The notes below the pieces were generated by a model. The model had not been told where the DNA came from, ran no database searches, and was given only the letters and a program-made list of their open reading frames with translations. This document shows, in pieces, positions 12,653-29,848 of a stretch of DNA of 60,497 bases (its first letter is position 1; every line of letters begins with the position of its first letter). This DNA is from Chloroflexota bacterium (GTDB taxonomy: Bacteria; Chloroflexota; UBA6077; JACCZL01), in assembly GCA_020850535.1 (NCBI GenBank), contig JADZEM010000186.1, positions 1-60,497 of the forward strand. The letters run 5' to 3'. The translations under genes were made by a program, and so were the position numbers.

Positions 12653-13732
12653 ATGGGCATGTTCCTTCAACGTGGTTCGCAACTGTTCGGGCTGGGGCGC
12701 TATTTCTGGGACGCCCTCCGCGAGATCAATCCGGCGGAGCTTCGGGCCGACTACGAGCAGCCGGTCACCATCGGGTTCTTCGGCCGCGCCGGCAGTGGGC
12801 GGCACACTCTCTCGCGAGCGCTGCTGGGCGTCGACACTGCCGAACTGACCGGGCGGGACATCTCCTTCAACGACGTCGACAGCGCCGCCGTCACGGCCTC
12901 CGGACGCTTGAGCCTGGCATTCCTGGTGGTGGACGCCACGGAGCCGGACTGGTCGCCTGAGCGCCGGATCGCGGCCCAGCTGGGCACGCGCGGCAGCCCG
13001 TTCTTCATCGTGTTGACGCACGCCGACCAGCTGCCGACGCCGTCTCAGGGCGGGCCGGCCCTCCGGAATCAGTTCCCAACCCATCCGCCTGAGCTGACGG
13101 CTGTCGTCGACGCCCGGAATGCCGAAGCCACCCGTGGCCAGCTGCTCGGGCGGATGCTCCAGACGGCGCCGCACCTGCGGCTGGCGCTGGCCCACCGCTT
13201 CCCGGCTCTGCGCCACCCGATCTCTGAAGATCTGATCCGCGAGGCCAGCAAGGTCAACGCTCAGTTTGCGCTGATGTCGAGCCTGCCGGCCCTGGTGCCG
13301 GTGCTGGGCATGTTCCTCGGCGGCATGGCTGACATCCTGGTGCTCACCAAGAACCAGGCGATGCTGGTCTTCAAGCTCGCCGCCATCCACGGACGGGACG
13401 TGGACGACCGGATCGGCGTGCTCAAGGAGATCCTGCCGGTGATCGGCAGCGCGTTCGTCTGGCGGACGGCTGCGCGCACGGCCATCGGATTCGCGCCGGC
13501 GCCCATCGCCGCCCTGCCGAAGGCGGCCGTCGCCTACCTGGGGACGTACACCGTGGGGCAGGCCGCCCGCTACTACTACGAGCGTGGCGACGCCCCGCCA
13601 CCTGAGATGATCCGTCTGTTCCAGGCCGAGGCGCGCCGTCGCTACGTCTCGGTCAACGAGGCGCTGAAGCAGCGGTTTGGCGGTGGTAAGCGGGCGCTGC
13701 CGTCTGGAGAGTCATCTACCGGCGCGTCCTGA
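12653..13732 (+). CDS. GTPase-like protein with DUF697-type membrane domain
   Basis: A 359-residue protein with a P-loop-like domain (about 35-170) and a hydrophobic DUF697-like domain (about 195-315). The P-loop reads GRAGSGRHT, with the usual Lys replaced by Arg. The base-recognition loop reads THAD rather than NKxD, with preceding VVDAT and FIVLTHAD strands. A glycine-rich helix pair with GMFLGGMAD follows. Related proteins (YcjF/Era-like with DUF697) are poorly understood membrane-linked GTPases. The altered P-loop makes nucleotide hydrolysis doubtful. The start is ATG at 12653; a second ATG lies at 12659. It stands alone, divergent from the FHA gene. Confidence 0.75.
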   Translation: MGMFLQRGSQLFGLGRYFWDALREINPAELRADYEQPVTIGFFGRAGSGRHTLSRALLGVDTAELTGRDISFNDVDSAAVTASGRLSLAFLVVDATEPDWSPERRIAAQLGTRGSPFFIVLTHADQLPTPSQGGPALRNQFPTHPPELTAVVDARNAEATRGQLLGRMLQTAPHLRLALAHRFPALRHPISEDLIREASKVNAQFALMSSLPALVPVLGMFLGGMADILVLTKNQAMLVFKLAAIHGRDVDDRIGVLKEILPVIGSAFVWRTAARTAIGFAPAPIAALPKAAVAYLGTYTVGQAARYYYERGDAPPPEMIRLFQAEARRRYVSVNEALKQRFGGGKRALPSGESSTGAS

Positions 13733-13767
13733 CCGTACATTCAGGGCAATCAGTGAGTGCGGAACGT

Positions 13768-13796
13768 TTGCCGGCCTTCGAGAAGGCGTGTATAAC
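13768..13796 (+). promoter_or_regulatory. Promoter of the small zinc-ribbon gene
   Basis: TTGCCG (13768-13773) and TATAAC (13791-13796) are separated by exactly 17 bp, one of the two best sigma70-like promoters in the window. Transcription would start near 13803. The ribosome site GGGAGGA (13815-13821) lies before the GTG at 13825, so promoter, leader and start fit one another. Confidence 0.65.
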
Positions 13797-13824
13797 CGAC
13801 TCGCTCAGCGACGAGGGAGGAACC

Positions 13825-14403
13825 GTGGCGCGCACCCCAATCGAATTTACCTGTCCGAGCTGCCGCGAGAGCTTCAAGAGCGCAGAATGGGGCGCTGTGT
13901 TTCCGTGCCCGAATTGCCACGAGAAGATTGGGCGGATCCAACAGCTCGATCAGCTTCTGGATCAGTGGTTCTATCCGCGCCGGTGGCGGGCGGACCTGCA
14001 CGAGCCGAACCCGTACTACCTGCTCGAAAAGCTGTGGACGGCGAACGGCCAGGGCGAGACGCTCTACAACGGCATCGCGCCGGCCCACGCGAACTACGAC
14101 GTCTTCCGACATCTGGTGACGCGGCTCGTGGCGCAGGGCGTGGACGAGGGCTGGGTCGAGCTGGAGTTCCCGGATGACCCGCTGGAGGAGAACCCGGTCT
14201 ACCAGCTGAAGTTCGGCGATCCGGACCGCTTCGCGAAGGGCGTCGAGCGGCTGTTCCCGGAGGTTGACTGGGACGAGCAGATCGAGGTGCCGGCCCAGGA
14301 GACTGAGGACGAAGGCACGTTCCCGGACGTCACGTCCAGCATTGCCGAGAGCGACGAGCCGACCTCGCTGGCGACCGAGCGGTCGCGCCGAGGCAAGCGC
14401 TAG
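13825..14403 (+). CDS. Small zinc-ribbon protein of unknown function
   Basis: A 192-residue soluble protein not assigned to a named family. The N-terminus holds a zinc ribbon with knuckles CPSC and CPNC (about 10-32). A conserved-looking aromatic middle follows (WFYPRRWRADLHEPNPYYLLEKLW), and then an acidic, probably disordered tail ending in RSRRGKR. The GTG start is chosen because GGGAGGA and a promoter stand directly upstream; the open frame continues up to 13753 but would then overlap the promoter. The gene is single and ends just before a large inverted repeat. The fold suggests a nucleic-acid or protein adaptor. Confidence 0.75.
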   Translation: MARTPIEFTCPSCRESFKSAEWGAVFPCPNCHEKIGRIQQLDQLLDQWFYPRRWRADLHEPNPYYLLEKLWTANGQGETLYNGIAPAHANYDVFRHLVTRLVAQGVDEGWVELEFPDDPLEENPVYQLKFGDPDRFAKGVERLFPEVDWDEQIEVPAQETEDEGTFPDVTSSIAESDEPTSLATERSRRGKR

Positions 14404-14420
14404 CCCGGGCGAGCAAGAAG

Positions 14421-14576
14421 GCCCTCACCCCCACCCCCTCTCCCTGTGCGCGGGAGAGGGGAGACCAGCAACGTGACGGCTGTTCCCTCGTATTCGGGCG
14501 TACCAGACGGCGGTAGGAGCAGTTCTCTCATTCCTCCCCTCTCCCGCGCACAGGGAGAGGGGTTGGGGGTGAGGGC
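14421..14576. repeat. 156-bp element with 42-bp inverted arms (repeat family A, copy 1)
   Basis: Bases 14421-14462 and 14535-14576 are reverse complements with one mismatch in 42, around a 72-bp centre. Each arm also contains its own 9-bp palindrome, CCCTCTCCC paired with GGGAGAGGG. It sits exactly between two convergent genes, so it could serve as a two-way terminator. A related element is at 30378-30551. It has no coding capacity and resembles a MITE or REP-type element. Confidence 0.85.
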
Positions 14577-14586
14577 TGCTTCTCGC

Positions 14587-15657
14587 CTACGCTCTCAGCT
14601 TCGCGATGATGGCGTCCGTGACGTCCCAGGTGGTGGCCGTGCCGCCGAGATCCGGCGTGAGCACCGTGCCCTCGGCGGTCACCGCCTCGATGGCCCGCAT
14701 GATCAGGCCAGCCAGCTCGCGCTCGCCCAGAGATTCGAGCATCATCGACGCCGCCCAGACCGCCGCAATCGGGTTGGCGATGCCCTTGCCGTGAATGTCC
14801 GGCGCGGAGCCGTGGACCGGCTCGAAGAACCCGGGCACCTTCTTGCTCGGGTTGACGTTCGCGCTCGGAGCCAGCCCGAGGCTCCCCTGGAGCGCCGCCG
14901 CGAGGTCCGTCAGGATGTCCCCGAACAGGTTCGAGGCAACCAGCACATCCAGTGACTCCGGATTGCGGACCATCCGCGCGGCCATCGCGTCCACGTGGCA
15001 CTGCTCGTGGGCGATCTCGGGATAGTCCGCCGACACCAGGTTGAAGACCTCGTCCCAGAACACGTTGCTGTGCTGCATCGAGTTCGACTTGGTGACGCTG
15101 GTGACCTTCTTGCGGCCGGTCGCGCGGGCGTACTCGAAACCTGCCCGCATGATCCGCTCGACGGCCGCCCGCGTGAACACGATGCTCTGAATCGCGACCT
15201 CGTGGTCGGAGCCGACGTGGACCCGGCCGCCGACCCCCGCGTATGCGCCCTCGGTGTTCTCCCGGAAGCAGACGAAGTTGATGTCGTCGCTGGTCTTGCC
15301 ACGCAGGATGCCCTCGGTGCCGGGCAGCAGGCGGATCGGCCGCTGGTTGACGTAGAGGTCGAACCCCTTGCGAATCGGCAGCAGCAGGCCCCACAGCGAG
15401 ATGTGGTCCGGCACCAGCTTCGGGAAACCGACCGCGCCCAGGTAGATCGCGTCGAACGGCTCCAGGATCTTGATGCCGTCGTCCGGCATCATCTTCCCGT
15501 GTTCAAGGTAGTAGCCGCAGCTCCAGGGGAACGTCTCGAACTCGAACCGCACATCCCCGACGACCTGCTCGGCCGCTTCGAGAACCTTCAGCCCGCAGCC
15601 GATGACGTCCTGCCCGATCCCATCGCCGGGAATGACCGCGATGTTGTGCGTCCGCAT
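14587..15657 (-). CDS. Tartrate dehydrogenase / D-malate dehydrogenase family
   Basis: A 356-residue decarboxylating dehydrogenase of the isopropylmalate/isocitrate fold. It starts with IPGDGIGQDV, has WSCGYYLEHGKMMPDDG typical of the tartrate dehydrogenase branch, and NQRPIRLLPG. It also carries the substrate and metal residues SVTKSNSM, SNLFGDILTDL and GSAPDIHGKGIANP. These enzymes use NAD+ with Mn2+ or Mg2+ to oxidise D-malate, tartrate or similar 2-hydroxyacids in the cytoplasm. The length is usual for the family. It is not next to leu genes, which argues against LeuB. It could be a single-gene route for dicarboxylate use. Confidence 0.9.
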   Translation of the reverse strand: MRTHNIAVIPGDGIGQDVIGCGLKVLEAAEQVVGDVRFEFETFPWSCGYYLEHGKMMPDDGIKILEPFDAIYLGAVGFPKLVPDHISLWGLLLPIRKGFDLYVNQRPIRLLPGTEGILRGKTSDDINFVCFRENTEGAYAGVGGRVHVGSDHEVAIQSIVFTRAAVERIMRAGFEYARATGRKKVTSVTKSNSMQHSNVFWDEVFNLVSADYPEIAHEQCHVDAMAARMVRNPESLDVLVASNLFGDILTDLAAALQGSLGLAPSANVNPSKKVPGFFEPVHGSAPDIHGKGIANPIAAVWAASMMLESLGERELAGLIMRAIEAVTAEGTVLTPDLGGTATTWDVTDAIIAKLRA

Positions 15658-15730
15658 AGGAAGCCCCCCGATCTACGTCAGAATCCGAAAGCCAGAGGAA
15701 CCGCGTCAGATCGATCAGCGGACCACGCGC

Positions 15731-15979
15731 TCAGGCGCCCGCTCGACGCTTCCACGCCCGAGCGAGGCGCAAGTACGCACGCCAGCGGATGACCGTCTTC
15801 CAGCCAAGCACGATGGTCGCGCTCAGCAGCAGGAGGAGGATCCCCCAGTTGAACTGCGCGCCGACCGACGGATACGCCAGCTTCAGGATGAGCTGCGCCG
15901 CGACGACGTTGACGAGTACCAGGCTGCCGATGGTCATCAGCAAGAGACTGGCCGGCGGCCTCGGTTTCACCTCGTACAT
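15731..15979 (-). CDS. Small two-helix membrane protein
   Basis: An 82-residue protein with two predicted hydrophobic helices (about 11-34 and 43-61) and an Arg/Lys-rich C-terminal tail (about 62-82), which would place both ends inside the cell. No family is recognised. It lies upstream of the tartrate dehydrogenase gene with a 73-bp gap on the same strand. It is divergent from the spermidine-synthase-like gene, whose promoter is at 16007-16035. Confidence 0.6.
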   Translation of the reverse strand: MYEVKPRPPASLLLMTIGSLVLVNVVAAQLILKLAYPSVGAQFNWGILLLLLSATIVLGWKTVIRWRAYLRLARAWKRRAGA

Positions 15980-16006
15980 CCCCTGTGCGCCACGAAACGT
16001 AATCTT

Positions 16007-16035
16007 CTGGCAGGTTCCGGGGCGGATGATACAAT
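16007..16035 (+). promoter_or_regulatory. Promoter of the membrane-fused spermidine-synthase-like gene
   Basis: CTGGCA (16007-16012) and TACAAT (16030-16035) are 17 bp apart, with a TG one base before the -10 (extended -10). The leader would be about 70 nt, with GGGAGCGAC before the ATG at 16114. Confidence 0.65.
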
Positions 16036-16113
16036 AGCGCCGCCGTAGGTGGACCCTGGCCCGTCCGAGCGCGCAAACGCGCGACGCCGGGCAGGCGAGA
16101 GGATGGGAGCGAC

Positions 16114-17709
16114 ATGGGTGGGCTCTGGGTCTCGTTATTGATCGTCTTTATGGCCAGCTGCTGCACCATGGTGCTGGAGCTGGTCGCTGGGCGCATCCTC
16201 GCTCCCTTTATCGGTGTCTCGTTGTACACCTGGACGAGCATCATCGGGGTGTGTCTGGCTGGCATCTCGGCAGGCAACTTCCTGGGCGGCGTTCTGGCAG
16301 ACAAAGCCGGCTCGCGCAGGACGCTCGGCCTGATCCTGCTGGGCGGCGGGCTGTTCAGCCTGCTGATCCTGCCGCTGGCCGCCTACGACCTGACCAACAT
16401 CATCCCGAAGCCGACCACCGGGCAGGCATCTGACGTCTGGCTCATCACCCGAATCGTGGTGATCACGTCGGTGCTCTTCCTGCCGCCGACGCTGATTCTG
16501 GGCATGGTCTCGCCGATCGTCATCAAGCTGGCGCTGACGGACCTGCGCCAGACCGGCTCCATCGCCGGCAAGATCTACGCCTTCTCGACGGTCGGCAGCA
16601 TCGTCGGCACCTTCCTGACGGGCTTCTACCTGGTGTCGGCGTTTGGGACGCGGTCGGTCGTGCTCGGCGTGGCCGTCATCCTGATCGGCATGGCGTTCGT
16701 CTTCGGCAACCTGCTCCCCTTCGGCAAGGACAAGAAGGGGAACGCCGAGGTGACCGTCGCCACCGCCTTGATCGTCATCGGGCTGGTCTACTGGATCAAT
16801 CCGCGCGGCGTGATCACCTACGAGCGGCCGGACGCGCTGAACGGCGGCTGCTACATGGAGACCAACTACTTCTGCATCAAGGTGACCGGGCCAGACTTGA
16901 ACGACGAGCATCAGACGGTGTCACTGGTGCTCGATCACCTGATCCACAGCTACAACTCGCTGAACGATCCGACCTACCTCAAGTACGGCTACATCAAGGT
17001 GTACGCCGACATGATCGAGTACGTCGCGCAGAAGTACCCGAAGTACAGCGCCTTCTTCATCGGCGGCGGCGGCTACACCCTGCCTCGGCAGATGGAGACG
17101 CTCCGCCCCGACGCCAAGATCGTCGTGTCGGAGATCGACCCCGGCGTGACGGAGACGAACTTCGCGCGGCTGGGCGTGCGCCGCGACACGAACATCATCA
17201 CCTACAACGCCGACGCCCGACAGATCGTCGATCTGTACCAGGGCGGCGAGAAGTTCGATCTCGTGTTCGGCGACGCGTTCAACGACCTGCAGATCCCGTA
17301 CCACCTGACGACGAAGGAGTTCGCGCAGAAGGTGCGGAGCATGATGAAGGACGACGGGCTGTACCTCGCGCTGGTCATCGACAAGCTGCGGGGCGGCCTG
17401 TTCATCCCGGCCTACACCAAGACGGTCAAGGAAGTCTTCCCCTACGTCTATATCCTGAACGACGCGCCGAACTGGAACAGTTCCGCGCCGAACACCTACC
17501 TCGTGGCGGCCAGCGCGACGCCGATCGACATGGACCGCATCCGCGCTATCAAGCCCGGCCAGGGTTTCAACGGCCAGCCGCTGGTGCAGATCATGCCGCA
17601 GGACGTGATGGACACGTGGCTCGCCGAGACGCCGACCATCATCCTGACCGACGACTACGCTCCGGCCGACAACCTGGTGGCCCCGCTGTTCGTGGAGCGC
17701 AGCTTCTAG
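16114..17709 (+). CDS. Membrane-fused spermidine-synthase-like protein
   Basis: A 531-residue protein. The N-terminal half has several membrane helices (about 1-230) that resemble the MFS-like part of fused spermidine synthases, with ELVAGRILAPFIG near the start. The C-terminal Rossmann domain (about 270-510) has FIGGGGYTLPRQ, VSEIDPGV and FDLVFGDAFND. These match the SpeE nucleotide loop and acidic loop, but the usual GGGDG and DSSDP residues are changed. It may therefore be an aminopropyltransferase relative with another substrate, or a non-catalytic one. The ATG has a GGGAGCGAC ribosome site and a strong promoter. Followed by a hairpin terminator. Confidence 0.85.
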   Translation: MGGLWVSLLIVFMASCCTMVLELVAGRILAPFIGVSLYTWTSIIGVCLAGISAGNFLGGVLADKAGSRRTLGLILLGGGLFSLLILPLAAYDLTNIIPKPTTGQASDVWLITRIVVITSVLFLPPTLILGMVSPIVIKLALTDLRQTGSIAGKIYAFSTVGSIVGTFLTGFYLVSAFGTRSVVLGVAVILIGMAFVFGNLLPFGKDKKGNAEVTVATALIVIGLVYWINPRGVITYERPDALNGGCYMETNYFCIKVTGPDLNDEHQTVSLVLDHLIHSYNSLNDPTYLKYGYIKVYADMIEYVAQKYPKYSAFFIGGGGYTLPRQMETLRPDAKIVVSEIDPGVTETNFARLGVRRDTNIITYNADARQIVDLYQGGEKFDLVFGDAFNDLQIPYHLTTKEFAQKVRSMMKDDGLYLALVIDKLRGGLFIPAYTKTVKEVFPYVYILNDAPNWNSSAPNTYLVAASATPIDMDRIRAIKPGQGFNGQPLVQIMPQDVMDTWLAETPTIILTDDYAPADNLVAPLFVERSF

Positions 17710-17739
17710 GCCCGGCCGCGCGCGGCACCTGGGCGGGAC

Positions 17740-17775
17740 GCCCGCACGTCGATTCTGACGTGCGGGCGCTCTTGC
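17740..17775 (+). terminator. Hairpin terminator after the spermidine-synthase-like gene
   Basis: GCCCGCACGTC (17740-17750) pairs perfectly over 11 bp with GACGTGCGGGC (17757-17767) around a 6-nt loop. The following stretch GCTCTTGCTT is only moderately T-rich. The position, 30 bp after the stop codon, fits a terminator. Confidence 0.65.
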
Positions 17776-17881
17776 TTCCTGGTACACGTCTGGCAGTCAT
17801 CCGTTCGGATGTTCCCGACGTACCATGTGGAGAGACGCCGCGTTTCAGGGAAGACTGTCACACGACAGGAACACCGGCCGG

Positions 17882-17911
17882 TTCTAAGGACGGAAAGACG
17901 CCTGATATACT
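17882..17911 (+). promoter_or_regulatory. Extended -10 promoter of the DUF4956-kinase-CYTH cassette
   Basis: TGATATACT (TATACT at 17906-17911 with TG at 17903-17904) has an extended -10 form. A weak -35 TTCTAA lies 18 bp upstream (17882-17887). The start would be near 17918, leaving a leader of about 59 nt before the GTG at 17977, with a GGGGGCGGAGG ribosome site. Confidence 0.5.
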
Positions 17912-17976
17912 GGCCGCAGCGCCCACCAGAGCAGAGGCGCGGCTGGTTCAGGCCCGCTGACGGGGGCGGAGGCGCC

Positions 17977-18894
17977 GTGGCGAAGAAGGATCGAATCGCG
18001 GCGGAGCAGGAGGCTGGTGACGACGCCGGCCTCGTCTTCGAGCGCTTTTCTCTCAACGGCTCAGCCAAGCCGGCCGGCCTCGGGGCCTCGCACCCAGACT
18101 ATGGCGTCTGGCTGGTGGCCCTCGGCATGGCCGCTGCCGCCGTCCTGGTGCTGGTCCTGGTGGCGATGCCCTCCAGCCGCACCACCAGCGCGCAGGCCAC
18201 CCCCCTGCCCGACAACGAGTTCACCAACATCATCAGCAGCGTGCAGACGCTGCTGACGCCGAGCGACCACTCCCTGCCCGTCGTGCTGGCGAAGCTGGTG
18301 CTGGCCGCGCTGCTCGGCGCGATCGTCGGCTACCGGCAGCGCATCCACGTTGACGAGTACATCGTCCAGGCGCACGTCATCATCGCGTTCACCGGCGCGC
18401 TGATGATGATCATCATCGGCAATGAGATCGTGCGCGCCTTCGGGCTGCTGGGCGCGGGCAGCATCATTCGGTACCGGACGCCCGTCCGCGACCCGCGCGC
18501 GCTGGCCTCGCTGTTCGTCACGATGGGTATCGGCATCGCCGTCGGCGTGGGCCTGTTCGAGCTGGCGTTTATCGGTGCGGTGTTGATCGTGCTGATACAA
18601 GGGGTCTTCGGACGGATCGCCAGCAGTCTTCCGTCAACGCTCTACAACCCGCAGCGCGGTTACACGTTGTCCCTCACGACGGAGGATGGCAGCGGCTCGC
18701 TGGAACGGATCCGTCAGACATTCTATGAGCGAGATATTCGGTACCGGCTGCTCGAATTCGATGCGCGGGCGAAGAAGGATGGCCTGGTCAAGATGACAAT
18801 GGTTGTCGAGGCAAACGCCAACCTCTCGACCGAAGAGCTGACGCTGCTGGTCTTCCGGGACGGCGTCCAGTCTGTCAGCTGGGAGGAGGAGTGA
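17977..18894 (+). CDS. DUF4956 membrane protein, first gene of the cassette
   Basis: A 305-residue protein. Residues 1-38 are hydrophilic. One membrane helix lies at about 44-66, and a bundle at about 105-210 contains GAIVGYRQR, LLGAGSIIRYRTPVRDP and TMGIGIAVG, the hallmark of DUF4956. The C-terminal part (about 225-305) is a soluble domain of mixed alpha/beta type. In other bacteria DUF4956 proteins are often found beside VTC-type or CYTH proteins, which handle polyphosphate; the CYTH gene here is four genes downstream. The GTG at 17977 is chosen for its GGAGG-like site; the open frame extends to 17809, across the promoter. The stop is 1 bp before the next ATG. Confidence 0.85.
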   Translation: MAKKDRIAAEQEAGDDAGLVFERFSLNGSAKPAGLGASHPDYGVWLVALGMAAAAVLVLVLVAMPSSRTTSAQATPLPDNEFTNIISSVQTLLTPSDHSLPVVLAKLVLAALLGAIVGYRQRIHVDEYIVQAHVIIAFTGALMMIIIGNEIVRAFGLLGAGSIIRYRTPVRDPRALASLFVTMGIGIAVGVGLFELAFIGAVLIVLIQGVFGRIASSLPSTLYNPQRGYTLSLTTEDGSGSLERIRQTFYERDIRYRLLEFDARAKKDGLVKMTMVVEANANLSTEELTLLVFRDGVQSVSWEEE

Positions 18895-18895
18895 T

Positions 18896-19678
18896 ATGGC
18901 GTCCAATGGCCAGGTGAACGGTGTCGCGACGCTGACGGCGCCGATCCCCCTGCAACGGTTCGACTATCCGGGCAGCCTGATCGTCGTCGAGGGCGTGGAC
19001 GGCTCGGGCAAGAGCACGCAGCTCCAGTTGCTCAAGGATTGGCTCATCGAGCAGGGAGCGGATGTCCTCTTCACAGAGTGGAACAGCTCCAGCCTGACGG
19101 CCAAAGCCGTGCGGCGCGGCAAGCGACGGCTCTGGCTTGGCCACCTGAGCTTTGTGCTGCTGCACGTGACGGACTTCACGCACCGGTACGAAAACATCAT
19201 CCTGCCGGCCCTCCGCGAGGGCAAGCTGGTGCTGGCCGACCGCTACGTCTTCACGGCGTTCGCCCGAGACGTGGCGCGCAACGCCGACCGCGCCTCGATT
19301 CGCCGGCTCTACAGCTTCGCCCTGCAGCCTGACCTGGCGCTCTACTTCCACGTGCCGCTCGACGTGGCCATGAACCGCGTCCTGACCGGTCCAGGCCGCG
19401 AAGGTCTGAAGTACTACGAGGCGGGCCTCGATCTCGGGCTGAGCCTGGAGCCGCAGGAGAGCTATCGGCTCTTCCAGAGCCGGGTGGTCAACGAGTACCA
19501 GCACATGGTGGACGAGTACCAGCTTACGGTGATCGACGCGAACCGGACCATCGAGCCGCAGCGCGAGGAAGTGCGCGAGCTGGCCCGTCCGATCCTGGAG
19601 CGTCACCTCGCGATGCTCGGCGAGCGTGAGGACACCCGCCGTGAGCGCCGACGCCGGCGGGAGGTTATCGGTGGCTGA
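18896..19678 (+). CDS. Thymidylate-kinase-like protein with intact P-loop
   Basis: A 260-residue P-loop kinase. The Walker A is EGVDGSGKSTQ (about 30-40), followed by the LADRY motif of thymidylate kinases (about 115) and PDLALYFHVP. The normal Lid arginines are not obvious. Instead it has a long segment YYEAGLDLGLS and YRLFQSRVV shared with the next gene. It may phosphorylate a nucleotide, or in this setting a different phosphate acceptor; true Tmk function is not assured. The start codon is 1 bp after the stop of the DUF4956 gene, and it overlaps the next start by 8 bp (translational coupling). The Arg-rich C-terminus resembles a linker or nucleic-acid-binding tail. Confidence 0.85.
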   Translation: MASNGQVNGVATLTAPIPLQRFDYPGSLIVVEGVDGSGKSTQLQLLKDWLIEQGADVLFTEWNSSSLTAKAVRRGKRRLWLGHLSFVLLHVTDFTHRYENIILPALREGKLVLADRYVFTAFARDVARNADRASIRRLYSFALQPDLALYFHVPLDVAMNRVLTGPGREGLKYYEAGLDLGLSLEPQESYRLFQSRVVNEYQHMVDEYQLTVIDANRTIEPQREEVRELARPILERHLAMLGEREDTRRERRRRREVIGG

Positions 19679-20942
19679 CCAGCGTCCCTACCCCGGCTAC
19701 CTGATCGCTTTCGAGGGTCCGGAGGGTGCGGGCCGCCGCGAGGCGCTCGCTCACGCGCGCGGCGCGCTCCAGGCACGCGGGCAGGATATCGTGGTCAGCC
19801 GCCCGATGGGCGCGACGCTGGCCGGCGGCATCTACCGCAGCGCCGCCCCCCTCAACGAGCTGTCGCCCCGCACCCTGGTGCTGGTCGCGGCCAGCGACAT
19901 GGCCGAGCGGCTCGAATGGGAGATCCTGCCGGCCCTGCAGGCCGGCAAGGTCGTCCTGGCCGACCGCTACGTCTACCGAACGGTGCAGGGCATGGCTCGC
20001 GATCTCGACCCTGACTGGCTGGAAGTGCTGTGCGCGGTAGCTCCGCGCCCGGACCTGGTCTTCCTCTACCACGACGAGGAGACGGTGCAGCGCTCGCGCA
20101 TCGATCTGTCCACCATCGACCTGTACGAGGCGGGGATGGATCTCGGGCTGACTCGCGACGTGCCGTTCAGCTATCAGCTCTACCAGCAGCGGGTGCTGGA
20201 GGGGTACGAGGACTGGGCCGAGGCGCATCAGCTTGAGTTGGTCCAGCCGAAGTCGATGGCCGAGATGGTCCAGCGCATCGAAGAGCTGATCGGCATCACC
20301 GTTGGCGACCTGAACGTGCGTCATCAGGCGGTCCTCTCGATGCTGATGCAGAACTACCACGATCCGCCGCACGCCATGCAGACGGCGACGCTGGCCCTGC
20401 AACTGTTCGACCAGTTGAAGCCGTTGCACAAGCTTGGCGCACAAGAAGCCGAGCTGTTCGAGTTCGGCGTCCTGCTGCACAACGTCGGCGAACAGGGCGA
20501 GGAGCGCGACCGCCGCATGCGGACGGCGGCACTGATCCGCGAGAGCAGCCTGCCAGGCTTCACGCGCGACGAATTGAACGTCATCAGCGTGATCGCCGCC
20601 GCCCACACGATCCATCACGTCAGCGAGCTTGAGGCGTGGTTGACCACCATCCCCTCGACGCTCCGGCCGATGGTCGAGAAGCTGGCGCCGCTGGCGCGGC
20701 TGGTGGACGGGATGGACGCCTCGCACGAGCAGACGGTCCGGTGGGTCGAGGCGATCCTTGCCGAGCACGGTAAGCTGCTGATCCGCATGCAGAGCCGCAC
20801 CAAGGCCAAGGCCGAGGTGCATGCCACGCGAGACCGCGCGCACTTGATCGAGAAGGTGTATGGGCTGGAAGTGGAGGTCATCGCGGAGCGGCAGGGGCCG
20901 CCGCCGGCCACAGCCAACCTTGTGCCGCTCAGCGTCGGCTGA
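19671..20942 (+). CDS. Degenerate thymidylate-kinase-like domain fused to a Ppx/GppA-type HD domain
   Basis: A 423-residue protein. Residues 1-205 are a paralogue of the preceding kinase, sharing LADRY and YEAGMDLGL. Its P-loop reads GPEGAGRRE: the catalytic Lys and the Ser/Thr are both replaced by Arg, so phosphotransfer is unlikely. Residues about 215-410 match the C-terminal HD-like domain of exopolyphosphatase/guanosine pentaphosphatase (Ppx/GppA), with HAMQTATLALQLFDQLKPLH, SSLPGFTRDEL and LVDGMDASH. The HD doublet reads HN. The GTG at 19671 overlaps the previous gene by 8 bp and has GGGAGGT upstream. It may bind polyphosphate or a phosphorylated nucleotide as a regulatory partner. The combination of domains is unusual. 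Confidence 0.8.
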   Translation: MADQRPYPGYLIAFEGPEGAGRREALAHARGALQARGQDIVVSRPMGATLAGGIYRSAAPLNELSPRTLVLVAASDMAERLEWEILPALQAGKVVLADRYVYRTVQGMARDLDPDWLEVLCAVAPRPDLVFLYHDEETVQRSRIDLSTIDLYEAGMDLGLTRDVPFSYQLYQQRVLEGYEDWAEAHQLELVQPKSMAEMVQRIEELIGITVGDLNVRHQAVLSMLMQNYHDPPHAMQTATLALQLFDQLKPLHKLGAQEAELFEFGVLLHNVGEQGEERDRRMRTAALIRESSLPGFTRDELNVISVIAAAHTIHHVSELEAWLTTIPSTLRPMVEKLAPLARLVDGMDASHEQTVRWVEAILAEHGKLLIRMQSRTKAKAEVHATRDRAHLIEKVYGLEVEVIAERQGPPPATANLVPLSVG

Positions 20943-20987
20943 GCGGCCAGTCACGAGAGTTCCAGGCGGCCAACGTCGGGGGAGCGG

Positions 20988-21185
20988 ATGCCGAGCCGAG
21001 ACCAGGACTACAGCTTGATCGCAGTCCTACACGACCAGCTCGAAGATATCGAGAGCTACGAGCGCTACCTGAAGGCGGCCACTGATTGCGACGCATGTGA
21101 AGCCATCTGGCGGCAGCTCAAGGAGCAGGCCGAGGCTGCCGTGACGTCGATCCGGGCGGAGATCCAGCGCCACGCCGTCGATTGA
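20988..21185 (+). CDS. 65-residue protein inside the cassette
   Basis: A small soluble acidic protein, largely helical (about 5-60). It has a Cys pair in the order CDAC near the middle, and it follows a GGGGAGCGG ribosome site by a few bases. It lies 45 bp after the kinase-HD gene and 95 bp before the CYTH gene. No family is recognised. The good ribosome site and its place in the operon support a real gene; it may be an accessory subunit of the kinase-like pair. Confidence 0.65.
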   Translation: MPSRDQDYSLIAVLHDQLEDIESYERYLKAATDCDACEAIWRQLKEQAEAAVTSIRAEIQRHAVD

Positions 21186-21280
21186 TGTCTGCTGCCGGCT
21201 CTGATGCCCCCGGCCTGAACGATGCAGCGACGTCCTCTCCGGACGCCGTGCCGGCCTGCCATCGGCAAGATTGGTGACCC

Positions 21281-21997
21281 ATGCGACTGCAGGACAACCT
21301 CGAAGTCGAGCTGAAGCTGACGGTGACCGGCAACGATCCTGACAAGCTGCTCGACGAGATCGCAACCATCGTCTCGCTCGGAGGCGTGCGGCTGGCCGAC
21401 GCCCGGGAGCACCAGTTGCGCGATATCTACTGGGACACCGCCGACTACGGTCTGCGCGCCCGCAAGCTCAGCCTGCGCCTCCGCGAGATCGACGGACGGC
21501 AGGTCTTCACGGTCAAGGGCGGCACCAGCTCCAGCGAGGGCCTGTTCCGTCGGTACGAGCTGGAGACGCCGGCCAGCGCGCAGAACTGGCAGGATGTCTG
21601 TGCCGTCTTCCACGACGAGGGCGTGGACCTGGCGCGGGTCAACGGGCTGGCCGGGGCCGGCACGTCGCCGGACGACTGGCTCCGCGCGGCTGGCCTCCAT
21701 CCGACGCAGGACCGTTCGACTCGCCGCACGGCCATCCACGCCTACGACGACGCCCACGGCGACCAGCCCCTCGCCGAGCTGGCCCTGGACCGCACCCGCT
21801 TCGACTTCGGACGGGTCCTGGTCGACTACTGGGAGATCGAGATCGAGGAGCTGGGCAACCACGGCGACGAGGTTCCTCGGCTCCTGGGGCAGGCGCTGCG
21901 GGAGCGCTACCCGGATCGCCTGGAGCCGTCCACGATGGGCAAGTACAGCCGTGGACTGGCTATCGAGCGGGAGCTGCGGACCACGGGCCAGCTCTAG
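21281..21997 (+). CDS. CYTH-domain (triphosphate tunnel) protein
   Basis: A 238-residue CYTH protein, the fold of adenylate cyclase class IV, thiamine triphosphatase and inorganic triphosphatase. The signature ExExK is EVELK at about 8-12. The tunnel strands follow: RDIYWDTADYGLR, LRLRE, VFTVKGG, LAELALDRTRFDFG and EIEIEEL. No CHAD domain is attached. The enzyme would bind a triphosphate end with divalent metal; substrate could be inorganic triphosphate, polyphosphate ends or a nucleoside triphosphate. It is the last gene of the cassette and converges with the next gene, their stops 7 bp apart. A possible stem CCGCTGG...CCAGCGG (about 22000-22031) spans the junction. Confidence 0.88.
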   Translation: MRLQDNLEVELKLTVTGNDPDKLLDEIATIVSLGGVRLADAREHQLRDIYWDTADYGLRARKLSLRLREIDGRQVFTVKGGTSSSEGLFRRYELETPASAQNWQDVCAVFHDEGVDLARVNGLAGAGTSPDDWLRAAGLHPTQDRSTRRTAIHAYDDAHGDQPLAELALDRTRFDFGRVLVDYWEIEIEELGNHGDEVPRLLGQALRERYPDRLEPSTMGKYSRGLAIERELRTTGQL

Positions 21998-22004
21998 CCG
22001 CTGG

Positions 22005-23294
22005 CTACCCGCGCGGCCACCCGGCCAGCGGATAGCGGATGCGCGCCCCGGCCACGTCGGGCGGGTAGACGGCCACCAGCTCATTGCCCTGCTGCTGCAA
22101 CACCGGCGGCACCGACGCCCGGTTGCGCCCCGCCGTGTCCCAGCCCAGGCGGCCCCAGAACGTCAGCACCTCCAGGCCCGAAAGCGCCTCGCGGACGGCG
22201 GCGGGGTCAGCCCCGCCCACCCGCTCGACCGCCAGCTGCAGCGCGAGGCCAGCCGCTGTCGCCGCCGCGCCGCGGGGGTCTGCCGCGTAGCCGTGCAGGC
22301 GCTTGAAGCGCTCGGCGTACTCGGCGGCTGACCCGAACACGGGCCCGTTGGCGGAGACCGTCGGCCACCAGTTCTCGACCGTCAGGATGCCGTCGAAGAG
22401 GACGGCGCGCCGGCCCGTCGGATCGACTGGCTCGGGCATCGGGACCAGCGCGCGCATCGAGGTGTACGGCAGGTAGGCCCGCAACGATGGCGCGAAGCGT
22501 GTCGTCTGGCCGTACTCCGTCGCCAGGATGATGAAGCGCGGCGTGGACTCGGCAGTCCGCAGGAGCGGCGGCATGATGTCCCGCGAGCCGAGCGCCGTCA
22601 GCTCCAGCCGGACCGGCCCGAGATCGAGGGCGTTCGCCCGCTCGCGGAAGCCGGCCGCCGCGGCGGCGTTCGACGGCTCGTCGGCGATGATGATGCCGAC
22701 CGGCGTGGCGCGCGGCTGAACCGATGCGGCAATATCCGCCAGTCCGTGAAACAGACGGTCTTCCGTCGGCAGGATCGAGAACAAGCCCTTCAGGCCCCGC
22801 CGATACAGTCCGGCAGCCGGCGCGTCAGGAGCGACCAGCACTGCACCGGCGCGGTCGGTCACGGTGGCAACCGAGGTCGTGATGGCCGACGAGAACGGCC
22901 CCAGAAAGAGGCGCACGCCCTGGCCTTGCACCAGCCGCTCGGTCTGGCGACCGGCCGTCAGCGGCTCGCTCTCGTCGTCCAGCAGGTGCAGGCGCAGCGC
23001 CCGCCGGCCATCGCTGACCTTCAGGCCGCCGGCCTGCTCGACGGCGTCCTGCCAGACCTCGTAGCCGGCCCGCATCAGCGCGCCCTCGCGGGAGAACCGT
23101 CCGCTCAGACTCAGGATCACGCCGACCTGCAATTCGCCAGTCGCCACGGCCGGCGCGGCCGGCGCGACAGACGGCGTCGGCGTCTCCGGCATCGAGAGCG
23201 TGCAGCCAGCCAGCCCGAGACTGGCCGACGCCAGCAGCAGCCCGGACAGGACGCGGCGGCGGCTCAGGCGGTTCATTCGGGGGGTCGCAGACAT
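22005..23294 (-). CDS. Substrate-binding lipoprotein, branched-chain amino acid type
   Basis: A 429-residue extracytoplasmic binding protein of the periplasmic-binding-protein family 6 (LivJ/AmiC type). It has a signal peptide with RRR and a lipobox LAGC (Cys about 31), so it is anchored to the outer face of the membrane, possibly via Tat. The two lobes begin with VGVILSLSGRFSREG, typical of the family, and later DESEPLTAGRQTERLV and the hinge region around SILPTEDRLFHGLADI. No permease or ATPase of the Liv type is adjacent, so it is an orphan and may serve as a sensor or use a distant transporter. The ligand is unknown. Confidence 0.87.
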   Translation of the reverse strand: MSATPRMNRLSRRRVLSGLLLASASLGLAGCTLSMPETPTPSVAPAAPAVATGELQVGVILSLSGRFSREGALMRAGYEVWQDAVEQAGGLKVSDGRRALRLHLLDDESEPLTAGRQTERLVQGQGVRLFLGPFSSAITTSVATVTDRAGAVLVAPDAPAAGLYRRGLKGLFSILPTEDRLFHGLADIAASVQPRATPVGIIIADEPSNAAAAAGFRERANALDLGPVRLELTALGSRDIMPPLLRTAESTPRFIILATEYGQTTRFAPSLRAYLPYTSMRALVPMPEPVDPTGRRAVLFDGILTVENWWPTVSANGPVFGSAAEYAERFKRLHGYAADPRGAAATAAGLALQLAVERVGGADPAAVREALSGLEVLTFWGRLGWDTAGRNRASVPPVLQQQGNELVAVYPPDVAGARIRYPLAGWPRG

Positions 23295-23541
23295 GGCGAG
23301 CGGATGCTACCACGGCGTTCGCGACGACGGTCAGGCCGCCTGAGCTGCCGCCCGGTGCCTGCCCCCGTCCGCGGTTGTCGTAACCCTGACGCTGTGAGCC
23401 GGTCGTGACCGCGCGCCGCTTGCGACGCTCCGACCGATGCCGTAGTCTGGCCTTCGTGCCGCGAGGTCGCCCAGGCGACCACCGGCCGCCGCGCAGTGGA
23501 CAGATTCGCTGCTGACACCCCGCCAAGGACCGCGCCACGCC
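23295..23541. other. Divergent intergenic region, 247 bp
   Basis: Between the binding-protein gene (leftward) and the SH3 gene (rightward). No gene is supported. It should hold both promoters, but no convincing paired -35/-10 boxes could be chosen. Confidence 0.4.
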
Positions 23542-24015
23542 ATGAGTATCGCGTTTTCACGAGTTACGTCGAGCTTCCGACCGGTTGATGCGACGCCATT
23601 GCCGCCGGTCCACTGGCCTTCGGCCTTCGTCGGGCTGTTCCTGGCCGTGCTCGTCGTCGTCTCGATCGCCTGGCTGGCCGCTCCCAGGCGCGTCGATCGG
23701 CCGTTGCCGGCCGCCGTCGCGCCGCTGCCGGTGGTGCAGGTCGCCCCGACCCCGATCCCTGCGCCGGCGGTCGCCGCCCCCGAGCCAGCACCCGTGCCGG
23801 AAAAGGTCAAGGTCGCCAACACCGGCGGCAGCAACCTGAACCTCCGGGCGAACGCCGGCGAGCGGTCCCAGCGGCTCAAGTCGGTGCCCGAAGGCTCGCT
23901 GTTGGAGATCGTGGGGGCGGACCAGACGGCAGACGGGGTCGTCTGGCGCAACGTGCGCGACGCATCAGGGGCGAGCGGCTTCGTGGCGGCGAAGTTCGTG
24001 GTCAAGACGCAGTAG
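23542..24015 (+). CDS. Membrane-anchored SH3-domain protein
   Basis: A 157-residue protein. It has one membrane helix (about 28-48), a Pro/Ala/Val-rich linker (about 50-92) and an extracellular SH3b domain (about 93-157) with LNLRANAG, VPEGSLLEIVG and GVVWRNVRD. Bacterial SH3 domains of this type bind peptidoglycan peptides or wall polymers. It therefore probably sits outside the cytoplasm facing the wall. The start is ATG at 23542, and the preceding stretch has no obvious ribosome site. Confidence 0.82.
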   Translation: MSIAFSRVTSSFRPVDATPLPPVHWPSAFVGLFLAVLVVVSIAWLAAPRRVDRPLPAAVAPLPVVQVAPTPIPAPAVAAPEPAPVPEKVKVANTGGSNLNLRANAGERSQRLKSVPEGSLLEIVGADQTADGVVWRNVRDASGASGFVAAKFVVKTQ

Positions 24016-24071
24016 CGAGACGGTCGGCGTATGAGCGGACCAATCTTTGGCCCGTTCACACAGCGCGCCGG

Positions 24072-24077
24072 TACACT
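24072..24077 (+). promoter_or_regulatory. Possible -10 box upstream of the metallo-hydrolase-like gene
   Basis: GGTACACT has the TACACT form seen at 656 and 12637. The -35 region (TTGGCC, 19 bp upstream) is poorly spaced. About 90 bp separate it from the TTG start at 24169. Confidence 0.3.
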
Positions 24078-24168
24078 TCAGGAAAGCGGCGCCAGATTGC
24101 GGGACGCCTGACGATTCGGGATCGAGTTCAGCCGTCAATCCGCCCCTGGGCGCGAGCCTGGAGCCACC

Positions 24169-24819
24169 TTGGACATTGTCTGGCACGGACACGCCTGTTT
24201 CCGCCTGCGCGGCCGCGAGGCGTCCATCGTCACCGACCCGTACGACCGCTCGACCGGCTACCCCGCGCTGAAGCTGACGGCTGACGTCCTCACCATCTCG
24301 AACCACACATCGCAGCACGCAAACACTGCCGCCGTCTCGGCAGCTGGCGACAAGCTGCGGCAGGTCGATGGCCCCGGCGAGTACGAGGTCGCCGGCTCGC
24401 TGATCGAAGGCGTGGTCACCTACCGTGACAAGCAGAAGGGCAAGGAGCGCGGCAAGAACACCGCGTACATGATCCACCTCGACGACCTGTCAGTGTGCCA
24501 CCTGGGCGCGCTGGCGCACACGTTGAGCAGCAGCCAGATCGAGTCGCTCAAGGACGCCGACGTGCTCCTGGTGCCAGTCGGCGGCGGGGACGTGCTGGAC
24601 GCGGCGGCCGCGGCCGAGGTCGTGAGCCAGTTGGAGCCGCGCATCGTCATCCCGATGTATTACGGTACGCCCGCCCTTCAGCTCGACGCGGTCGACCGGT
24701 TCTGCGCCGAGATGGCCGTCACCGAGATCGTGCCGCAGGCCCGCCTGGTGGTCACCAGATCCTCGTTGCCGGAAGAGACGCGGCTCATCGTGCTGGCCGC
24801 GCCGGAGCCGAAGCGGTAA
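24169..24819 (+). CDS. Metallo-beta-lactamase-fold protein with altered metal motif
   Basis: A 216-residue protein of the UlaG-like branch of the metallo-beta-lactamase fold, starting with MDIVWHGHACFRLRG and TDPYD. The expected HxHxDH motif reads NHTSQH, so the metal site is partly lost. The remaining GPGEYEV, HLGALAH and IPMYYGT regions follow the usual order. It may be a weak or repurposed hydrolase. The TTG start at 24169 has no strong ribosome site. The stop is 4 bp before the next gene, so these two and the following lipoprotein may be cotranscribed. Confidence 0.8.
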   Translation: MDIVWHGHACFRLRGREASIVTDPYDRSTGYPALKLTADVLTISNHTSQHANTAAVSAAGDKLRQVDGPGEYEVAGSLIEGVVTYRDKQKGKERGKNTAYMIHLDDLSVCHLGALAHTLSSSQIESLKDADVLLVPVGGGDVLDAAAAAEVVSQLEPRIVIPMYYGTPALQLDAVDRFCAEMAVTEIVPQARLVVTRSSLPEETRLIVLAAPEPKR

Positions 24820-24823
24820 CGGC

Positions 24824-25021
24824 ATGCGGGAGATCGCCGTTCGGCTGGCCTGCTTCGTGGCGAATCTGGTCATCGGCGAGCCGCGCATGGTCGTGACGGC
24901 CGCCGAAGAGAAGGCCCTGGCGCTGGCCCGCGTCGACGACCCGTACTTTCACGCTTTTCGAGATCGCTGCATGCAGTGGGTGCTCGGGAACGATCCTCGC
25001 CGCCCCCAGGACGACAGCTAG
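24824..25021 (+). CDS. Small conserved-style protein, 65 residues
   Basis: A short soluble protein with a hydrophobic first part (LACFVANLVIGEP) and a charged end. Unassigned. It lies between the metallo-beta-lactamase-fold gene (4-bp gap) and the GDSL lipoprotein (15-bp gap), all on one strand, which supports it being translated. It could still be a chance frame; codon use looks like the neighbours. Confidence 0.55.
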   Translation: MREIAVRLACFVANLVIGEPRMVVTAAEEKALALARVDDPYFHAFRDRCMQWVLGNDPRRPQDDS

Positions 25022-25036
25022 AACGGCGCCACATCC

Positions 25037-25726
25037 ATGACTTCACGCAGACGGCTCCTGCTGACGCTTCCGTGGGTGCTGCTGGCCGGGGCCGCCTGCC
25101 GAGGGGCGGTCACGCCAACGTCGGCGGCACGCCCGCTGACCTATGTAGCCATCGGCGCATCGGACTCGGTCGGGGTGGGCGCCGGCTCGCCGGATCAGGA
25201 GAGCTGGCCGGCCGTCCTGCAGCGCAGGCTGCCGGCCGGCAGTCGGCTCGTCAACCTGGGTGTCAGCGGCTCCCTGATCCGGCAGGCCGTCGACCAGCAA
25301 CTGCCGGTGGCCCTCGACAGCGATCCCGACCTCGTCACCGTCTGGCTGGCCGTCAACGACTACGGCGCACGGGTGCCGTTGCCCCGCTACGCCTCGGACC
25401 TGGATCTGCTGCTCCAGACCCTCCGATCCCAGACCCGCGCCACCATCCTGGTCGGGAACGTGCCGGACTTGAGCGTCTTGCCGGTCGCCGCGCGCTTCGA
25501 CCTGAAGGATGTGGACCGCTGGAACAACGCCATCGCCGAACTGAGCCGGCGGCATGGCGCGGTCCTGGTCGATCTGCGGCAGGCGTACGCTGAGGTCGCG
25601 CAGCACCCCGAGTACATCAGCTCGGACGGCTTCCACCCGAGCACGACGGGGTACCAGCGGCTGGCCGACCTGTTCTACGCCTCGGCCGTCGAGCCGCTCG
25701 GACTGGCGACGGGCCGAGCCGGATGA
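25037..25726 (+). CDS. GDSL/SGNH-hydrolase lipoprotein
   Basis: A 229-residue secreted hydrolase. The N-terminal signal ends in a lipobox-like AGAAC (Cys about 20), so it is likely lipid-anchored outside the cell. SGNH blocks are present: GASDS (block I, Ser nucleophile; the usual GDS is altered), NLGVSGS (block II Gly), LAVNDYG (block III Asn) and SDGFHP (Asp-His of block V). Such enzymes deacylate lipids or carbohydrates; the substrate is not evident. The stop overlaps the ATG of the next gene (ATGA). Confidence 0.87.
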
Positions 25727-26541
25727 CCCGAACGCCGGAACCATCCTCCGTCTCGCCGATTGTCGAGGCGCGCGGGCTTCGCAAGTGGTATCGAACGGGC
25801 GCGGTCCCCGTCGAGGCGTTGCGCGGCCTTGACGTGGCCGTGGAGGCCGGCGAGATCGTCGCGATCATGGGGCCGAGCGGCTGCGGCAAGACGACCCTCC
25901 TGCAGTGCATCTCCGGCCTTGACGACTTCGACGAGGGCGAGGTCTGGATCGACGGGACGCCGCTCAAGGGGATGAAGGACGCCCAGAAGGCCGACCTTCG
26001 GGCGCGGCGGACCGGGTTCGTGTTCCAGGCGTACAACCTCCTGCCGGTCCTCGACGCCGCCGAGAACGTCGAGCTGCCGCTCTTGCTGGCCGGCCAGCGC
26101 GGCAAGGCGGCGCGCGCCCGGGCGCTGCGCGCCCTGGAGGCTGTCGGGCTGGAGCATCGCGCCCGCCACCGCCCGAATGAGCTGTCGGGCGGCCAGCAAC
26201 AGCGTGTCGCCATCGCGCGGGCGCTGGTCAACGATCCGGCCGTCGTCTGGGCCGACGAGCCGACCGGCAACCTGGACTCGGAGTCGGCCACCGAGATCCT
26301 CGACCTGATCGAGCGGCTCAACCACGAGAACCACCAGACCTTCGTCCTGGTCACCCACGATCCGCGCGTGGCCGAGCGGGCGCACCGGGTGCTGCGGATG
26401 CGAGACGGACAGATCGTCGAGGAGGAGCGGCGGCGGCCAACGCGAGACCACGGCCCGAACGGCGCTGCTCCCGACGCGCCGGCCACCATCCCGACCCATC
26501 CTGCGAGCCGTCCCACGCCGTCGCTCACCTCCGAGCGCTGA
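25723..26541 (+). CDS. ABC transporter ATPase, MacB/LolD type
   Basis: A 272-residue ATP-binding subunit with all nucleotide-binding motifs. Walker A is GPSGCGKTT (about 49-57), the Q-loop FQAYN, the signature LSGGQQQR, Walker B VWADEPT and the switch His in VTHDP. The [21 protein letters not shown] stretch is typical of ATPases working with FtsX-like permeases. The C-terminal tail is Pro/Ala-rich. It overlaps the previous gene by 4 bp and sits 7 bp from the permease gene; the two form one exporter or lipoprotein-release machine in the cytoplasmic membrane. Confidence 0.92.
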
Positions 26542-26548
26542 GCCAGAC

Positions 26549-29500: not shown

Positions 29501-29848
29501 GCCGGGCTGGGCGTCATCAGCATGCGGGCGGTGGTGGAGCGTCGGCGCGAGATCGGGATGCTGCGGGCGCTCGGCTTCACGGCGCGAGCCGTCCAGGCGA
29601 CGTTCGTGCTGGAAGCGACGGTCGTGGCGCTGTTGGGGATCGCGGTTGGCATCGGGCTGGGGCTGGGGCTGGCCGAGCGGCTGATCGCGTTCATCGCCCG
29701 CGAGTTCCCGGAGATCGTTTTCACGGTGCCGTGGGGGCAGATCGGCGGGATCGCGCTGTTCGCGTATGTCGCGGCGCTCGCCACGACGGCGTGGCCGGCC
29801 TGGCGGGCCGGCCGCGTCCAGCCCGCCCAGGCCCTCCGCTACGACTGA
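26549..29848 (+). CDS. FtsX-like/MacB-type ABC permease
   Basis: A 1099-residue membrane protein carrying two FtsX-like permease domains, each with about four helices. The first domain follows a helix at about 10-33 and an extracellular domain, and shows LGVMRALGARQGRV at about 435-450. The second ends the protein with EIGMLRALGFTARAVQATFVLEA. An extracytoplasmic domain lies between the halves. The large length fits a fused two-domain permease; with the ATPase it would move lipids, lipoproteins or peptides, or act in mechanotransmission. The GTG start at 26549 may be replaced by the ATG at 26573. The target is not evident. Confidence 0.9.
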   Translation: MQSILGVPMSTIVVAVSVLFVGGLAALLAVGLRDRLLLRLALRNVPRRRAQSALIALGLALSTVIITTALNTGDTISHTLRSLVAGTVGRADEIVVRPRRDARRIGFDNVQSVANGTFLTGTLQPFEQAEADRLAAALADDDRIAGVTASTVEQVLAVNGSTGEVQAQVRLYALPRSYPPVFGTLTDTRGGPLDFAGLDAGAVVLNADAALALGAEPGHRLQAQLGEHSLELTVAAIARSGDLTGVQATIVMPLDDLQRLTEAPGQINQVLIANRGNSTTSVLLSQEVAARVRPLLVDPEAARRIHGLLRSEIARAELTAALPALDEKTQAQVQALLTELEASEPSPRFAAIISDPELERRLFALSGRLAAQQGRAGTSTLATLSTLRVLEVKRLSQELADRWGAALTTVFVVLGLFSIATGTMLVVLIFVMLAAERRTELGVMRALGARQGRVAATLLYEGLLYDLVAAAVGVVVGIAVAIGLISMSASVLAGFGITLTPRVEPVSLWLAYCLGAVVTMVSVAISAWRAGRLSIVSAIRNLPEPPRPPNSVRPLVVGVGILVLGVLLSVLSAGTRFALPSGAGVVLITLGVAALARPLLLRLSLEPHTADRLRYSVAGAFLLAYWLLPTDLLGLVGNVRPLPRSVDLFFVAGLTLVLGAVLILAHNLEIASGLARQIGDGMRGGALVVRLALAFPVQNRFRTGMTVAMFGLVIFSMVVAAVLLTGTHRAYSDPEIMAGGYDIRVDETAGGAPALQSLFGSTPTLRAEDYAAVGVLTGRPAEAIQPGSETTVWRSVGLNALDDQFTQTIRAGFSGRAAGYASDAAVWEALRTQPGTAIVAGAAARSREVEPAPIPTFRLAGAYREDAQFPPTTVWVRDTRGGKAIRLTVIGILDPRTTFGSGLFTSPATLAAAELPAANRTATYLRTAPGAVPAERTLALNVALAQHNLRASEIGEDVRRILGLRMLLNDMLQAFIGVGLLAGIAGLGVISMRAVVERRREIGMLRALGFTARAVQATFVLEATVVALLGIAVGIGLGLGLAERLIAFIAREFPEIVFTVPWGQIGGIALFAYVAALATTAWPAWRAGRVQPAQALRYD

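Follow-up and report, generated by a model that had tools for sequence, protein, structure and literature searches.

We analyzed a 60,497-nucleotide stretch of a Chloroflexota genome (contig JADZEM010000186.1, assembly GCA_020850535.1), referred to here as the window. Five ORFs lie on one strand in its positions 17,977 to 21,997 (Table 1), and their coordinates agreed with those of an earlier note made from the sequence alone, as did the 1-bp gap between ORF 1 and ORF 2 and the 8-bp overlap between ORF 2 and ORF 3. The small ORF starts 45 bp after ORF 3, and the CYTH gene starts 95 bp after the small ORF. The domain calls of the note were borne out by Pfam (i.e., Thymidylate_kin in ORFs 2 and 3, Ppx-GppA domain III in ORF 3, and CYTH in ORF 5; PF01928, 52.5 bits). 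The ExExK motif of the CYTH protein reads EVELK and is located at residue 8. No Pfam family above the cut-off was found for the small ORF, which also had no homologue in any of the fetched loci. The signals proposed upstream stood in part. A hairpin with a 13-bp stem is present at positions 17739-17768, but 0.9 such hairpins are expected by chance and its T tail is weak; likewise, the sequence TGATATACT, described as an extended -10 element, is present at positions 17903-17911, but a sigma-70 scan gave no promoter. A reading of the locus as a defence system was rejected, as PADLOC gave no convincing match.

Table 1. Features of the kinase locus and its flanks (window coordinates)
Feature	Position	Strand	Remarks
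P0001, DUF4956/MgtC-like membrane protein (ORF 1)	17977..18894	+	305 aa, GTG start; possible in-frame ATG at 17809
P0002 (ORF 2), kinase A, catalytic-type subunit of TMK-like pair	18896..19678	+	Assigned by the A profile
Walker A of kinase A, GVDGSGKST	18992..19018	+	Motif common to 124/127 A proteins
EWNSS motif of kinase A	19076..19090	+	Occupies the EPGG place of ordinary TMKs
P0003 (ORF 3), kinase B + Ppx domain III	19671..20942	+	
Degenerate kinase B domain, P-loop GPEGAGRRE	19671..20306	+	Walker K->R family; model matches ST1543
Ppx/GppA domain III (HD-like) fused to kinase B	20316..20885	+	PF21447; HD dyad = HN
Orphan small ORF (ORF 4), 65 aa	20988..21185	+	Membership in unit uncertain
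CYTH protein with ExExK motif (ORF 5)	21281..21997	+	Neighbour, outside conserved unit
Terminator-like hairpin 3' of MFS/spermidine-synthase gene	17739..17768	+	13-bp stem

The five genes had been proposed to form one cassette, which synteny contradicted. In two relatives (G018 and G019), the MFS/spermidine-synthase gene is followed by the CYTH gene with no kinases in between: the two genes are directly adjacent in G018 and 76 bases apart in G019 (L209, positions 7552 and 7475). In the window, 3.57 kb separates them and contains the DUF4956 gene, kinase A, kinase B with its fused HD-like domain (B-HD), and the small ORF. The G019 stretch equivalent to window positions 12653-29848 is collinear with the window, and the order DUF4956 - A - B-HD is kept in G019 on a different contig, without CYTH. 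Since G019 keeps these three genes together elsewhere and CYTH apart from them, the conserved unit consists of three genes; their order is conserved in two genera, and CYTH is independent. No A-B pair was found in G018. The five-gene cassette was rejected, given that CYTH belongs to an MFS/spermidine synthase - CYTH - substrate-binding protein block lacking kinases in G018 and G019 and that the small ORF is an orphan. This block is probably the older neighbourhood, existing without kinases in two relatives. Free variation of the neighbours between relatives, which the earlier note had named as evidence against a functional cassette, was found for the CYTH and small-protein genes but not for DUF4956 - A - B-HD. 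The block is kept in three genera of the family (window positions 16114-23294 versus L208 and L209) and is interrupted by the kinase unit only in the window, where the flanks of the unit showed no repeats characteristic of mobile elements. In G019, a Nudix hydrolase gene (L036:8557-8970, reverse strand) comes after DUF4956 - A - B-HD, in place of the small ORF and CYTH.

Kinase A matched Thymidylate_kin with 78 bits (Pfam) and scored 304 bits against an A profile built without the window and G019 members, versus 64 bits against the ordinary TMK profile. ST1543 of Sulfolobus, deposited as a dTMP kinase, was the closest solved structure (258 bits versus 73 for the next), and the match to PDB 2plr reached 164 bits (next structure, 47 bits). 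Kinase A also passes the NCBIfam dTMP-kinase equivalog TIGR00041 (96.7; cut-off, 83.25). The P-loop GxDGxGK[ST] is present in 124 of the 127 A proteins and EWNSS in 119. Eight ordinary TMKs extracted from the class carry EPG(G/D)T and DR(Y/F)xDSTxAYQ; kinase A has EWNSS and DRYVFTAFARD where the thymidylate-site EPGG and DR(Y/F)xDSTxAYQ would stand, and TAxARD replaces STxAYQ in the A family. The kinase family of the pair is different from ordinary dTMP kinase. The PPK2 profile PF03976 matched neither P0002 nor P0003. The possibility that kinase A is the genome's only dTMP kinase was rejected on account of a separate TMK of a different type (at C222). The separate thymidylate kinase of the genome (L003, 1501-2031, reverse strand) has FPDYSTPLG for the bacterial EPGG and a very long branch. 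A separate TMK-family protein outside the pair was found in the window genome and in all 15 other genomes checked, which left a nucleotide triphosphate, the alternative substrate named in the earlier note, less supported.

Kinase B (P0003) matched Thymidylate_kin with 56 bits (Pfam) and fell under the TIGR00041 cut-off (51.7 versus 83.25). Its Walker lysine is replaced by arginine in 113 of 121 B proteins, and the P-loop is more decayed in the window and G019 than in the other B proteins. The combination of an intact and a degenerate kinase, as first described, was upheld by comparative evidence. Only the B proteins of the window and G019 are fused to the HD part, which matched Ppx-GppA domain III (PF21447; 37 bits, cut-off 27.3; Pfam); its HD dyad is HN in the window and HD in G019. 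Domain III is a separate gene in three other genomes (G005, G006, and G251). In a structure model of P0003 (pLDDT 84), the kinase part matches ST1543 and the remainder matches Ppx/GppA structures. The Ppx catalytic domains I and II (PF02541) are absent from P0003 and were not found in the window genome. The polyphosphate-binding domain of Escherichia coli Ppx serves as a polyphosphate probe (PMC6537752). The fused domain has a net charge of -5, which does not favour polyanion binding. Against profiles from which the window and G019 B proteins were left out, the window B kinase domain scored 138 bits (B), 136 bits (A), and 52 bits (TMK), and in the tree the kinase domains of the two B-HD proteins form a long-branch pair outside the B clade. 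Because of this placement, descent of B-HD from B is suggested by gene position together with the narrow profile margin (138 versus 136).

P0001 has four or five hydrophobic segments and scored above the Pfam gathering cut-off for MgtC (PF02308; 50.3 bits, cut-off 31.4) and below that for DUF4956 (PF16316; 26.1 bits, cut-off 30.6). The DUF4956 identity given in the earlier note therefore holds in part: the SIIRYRTPVRDPR stretch matches DUF4956 proteins, including one that adjoins a VTC domain, but the score is under the Pfam cut-off. The structure model of P0001 (pLDDT 51) was too poor for use. The G019 counterpart is 42% identical and lies directly upstream of A-B, and this conservation supports the proposed membrane partner. 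Among the relatives of P0001 found in the phylum, the nearest non-family one is a DUF4956 protein, and its gene overlaps a VTC gene (L194); this suggests that polymerases of two unrelated folds are served by one membrane-protein family. A general partnership of DUF4956 with A-B was rejected, since the two were seen side by side only in the family of the window genome.

The kinase A family was detected at 1e-35 or better in 69 of 400 Chloroflexota genomes, nearly always with a second kinase beside A. A scan of genome contigs gave at least 497 confirmed stretches, of which 80 were kept; these include loci from Sulfolobus, Thermoplasmata, Nitrososphaerota, Methanobacteriota, Verrucomicrobia, Acidobacteria, Planctomycetes, Bacillota, Gastranaerophilales, and others. 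In about 120 of 127 loci, spread over many bacterial and archaeal groups, the sister kinase is directly 3' of A, most commonly with a 4-base overlap. In the tree, the A side, with ST1543 included, had support of 87/83, with a B side lacking the window and G019 B proteins. ST1543 grouped with the Sulfolobus A protein (L111_A; support, 100/100), and the A clade that holds ST1543 and this PPX-linked Sulfolobus kinase also contains the window kinase A.

Comparative gene neighbourhoods supported the link to polyphosphate that had been put forward. Genes for Ppx, domain III, CHAD, PhoU, or PPK2 are located at most 6 kb from A in 42 of the 80 wide-range loci (kept from at least 497) and polyphosphate genes in 21 of the 47 Chloroflexota loci, both being underestimates because several contigs are short; none of 20 ordinary tmk control loci had polyphosphate genes within 6 kb. 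The orders include PPK2 - Ppx - A - B with PhoU nearby (L089) and CHAD - A - B - ROK - separate domain III (L041). The latter arrangement occurs in L040, L041, and L077, and its ROK-like sugar kinase is a possible polyphosphate glucokinase. Large ORFs matching both the CHAD and the Ppx domain III profiles, possibly fusions of two polyphosphate-binding domains, were seen in L089 (1594-3354 relative to A) and L154. The Sulfolobus locus (i.e., SixA - PPX - A - B) agrees with the gene order SixA-PPX-dTMP kinase-CHAD published for Sulfolobales (PMC10892726). This group lacks PPK1/PPK2 (PMC6864096), and PMC11677633 and PMC13318637 cite a report of a family 3 polyphosphate kinase from it.

Searches of the window genome gave no PPK1, PPK2, or Ppx (PF03976, none at 1e-20); one weak CHAD and two VTC-domain proteins (L230, 1276-2211, forward strand; L231, 1435-2178, reverse strand) are present. 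No DUF4956 gene was found beside the latter two, and their presence led us to reject A-B as the only polyphosphate maker of this genome. G019 had no match to PPK1, PPK2, or VTC, which leaves A-B, among the families tested, as the one candidate maker in G019. Across the 400 Chloroflexota genomes (uncorrected for kinship), PPK1 is rarer with A-B (22/69 versus 187/331; odds ratio, 0.36; p = 3e-4) and PPK2 is commoner (47/69 versus 146/331; odds ratio, 2.7). Eighteen A-B genomes, including the window genome and G019, have neither PPK1 nor PPK2.

On the basis of these features, we consider it probable that DUF4956 - A - B-HD belongs, as a bacterial representative, to a thymidylate-kinase-fold polyphosphate kinase group, with a catalytic A and a chain-holding B-HD, and that it would act reversibly in association with the membrane. 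Kinase A, with its ATP site, would shuttle phosphate reversibly between ATP/ADP and the polyphosphate chain. Kinase B, having lost the Walker lysine, would be a noncatalytic subunit paired with A, and we infer an A-B heterodimer with polyphosphate as its substrate. The fused domain III, derived from the polyphosphate-binding region of an exopolyphosphatase, may allow B-HD itself to hold the chain in this lineage. P0001 may anchor or regulate the complex at the membrane, a role proposed because its DUF4956 relative pairs with a VTC-type polymerase. Kinase A and the recently reported archaeal family 3 polyphosphate kinase (PPK3; Hofmann et al., bioRxiv 2024; JBC 2026, 302:111283; cited in PMC11677633 and PMC13318637) are probably products of one gene family, since ST1543 is the nearest structure and the Sulfolobus locus reads SixA-PPX-A-B; the identification is drawn from the locus and from these citations of the enzyme. 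The main doubts about the polyphosphate kinase reading are the TIGR00041 score of A, the deposition of ST1543 as a dTMP kinase, and the slightly negative charge of the fused domain; the two VTC-domain proteins, the placement of B-HD outside the B clade, and the restriction of the DUF4956 partner to the family of the window genome also count against it.

Two of these doubts, the TIGR00041 score and the TMK fold with ST1543 deposited as a dTMP kinase, would fit a kinase A that is a second nucleoside-monophosphate kinase (for dTMP or another substrate) supplying NTPs, with B as a regulatory pseudo-kinase and the polyphosphate neighbours reflecting general phosphate regulation. We regard this as unlikely, because EPGG and STxAYQ are replaced by EWNSS and TAxARD, because a separate TMK-family protein accompanies the pair in every genome checked, and because polyphosphate genes adjoin about half of the A-B loci and none of the tmk loci. 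As a P-loop kinase, PPK2 has a related fold, and A-B could similarly be a polyphosphate-dependent nucleotide kinase working mainly toward NTP rather than a chain builder. The excess of PPK2 in A-B genomes shows that polyphosphate-using kinases are common where A-B occurs, and the title of the family 3 report, as given in the references of PMC11677633, mentions an energy buffer. However, the 18 genomes without PPK1 and PPK2 would need another maker, and the negative link of A-B to PPK1 is what a replacement would produce; this direction appears improbable to a similar degree.

That the CYTH and small proteins are functional members alongside the kinases is very improbable. All five genes share a strand with close spacing, the CYTH protein has ExExK and a weak nearest structure (5a60) that is an inorganic triphosphatase, and it could act as a hydrolase because the window genome lacks Ppx. 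However, G018 and G019 hold the MFS-CYTH-substrate-binding protein block without kinases, and DUF4956 - A - B-HD of G019 lies elsewhere, so a five-gene cassette as the ancestral unit is largely refuted.

The polyphosphate kinase reading relates the pair to several known systems. The window kinase A clusters with ST1543 and with the Sulfolobus kinase linked to PPX, whose gene would, judging from its locus, encode PPK3; unlike PPK3 as cited, the window pair is bacterial, has B fused to Ppx domain III and a DUF4956 gene upstream, and has no adjoining Ppx or CHAD gene. Canonical dTMP kinases (TIGR00041/PF02223) share the fold and P-loop with A, which scores above the NCBIfam cut-off, but A lacks the thymidylate-site motifs, has a second subunit nearly always adjoining and a polyphosphate neighbourhood, and forms its own clade. 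PPK2 (PF03976) shares the P-loop kinase fold, and two-domain PPK2 proteins also combine a catalytic and a degenerate unit; the window kinases, without a PF03976 match, are a separate family. VTC/CYTH polymerases have a membrane partner from the same family, but their triphosphate tunnel is unrelated to the TMK-like fold. Ppx/GppA exopolyphosphatases share domain III and its fold with P0003, which lacks their catalytic domains.

Automatic annotation would partly label these touching kinase genes "dTMP kinase", and many genomes contain polyphosphate-related genes yet carry neither PPK1 nor PPK2. Should A-B turn out to be the polyphosphate maker in such cases, many groups would have proteins to reassign that at present probably bear the dTMP kinase label. 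More tentatively, prokaryotes may possess an additional widespread route to polyphosphate, based on an obligate kinase/pseudo-kinase pair that has the thymidylate-kinase fold and occurs in many groups of bacteria and archaea; here the pair would be linked to the membrane, equipped with an exopolyphosphatase-derived chain-holding domain, and would share a membrane partner family with VTC-type polymerases. The fusion of a pseudo-kinase to Ppx domain III provides a direct gene-fusion link of the pair to polyphosphate in a small, testable enzyme. Within the two kinase families, a second kinase A copy in G131 (L101) is lone, with its P-loop altered to GICSSGKST and no B adjoining, and the Sulfolobus B subunit (L111:4387-5022, forward strand) is extremely divergent, with DGY where others have DRY.
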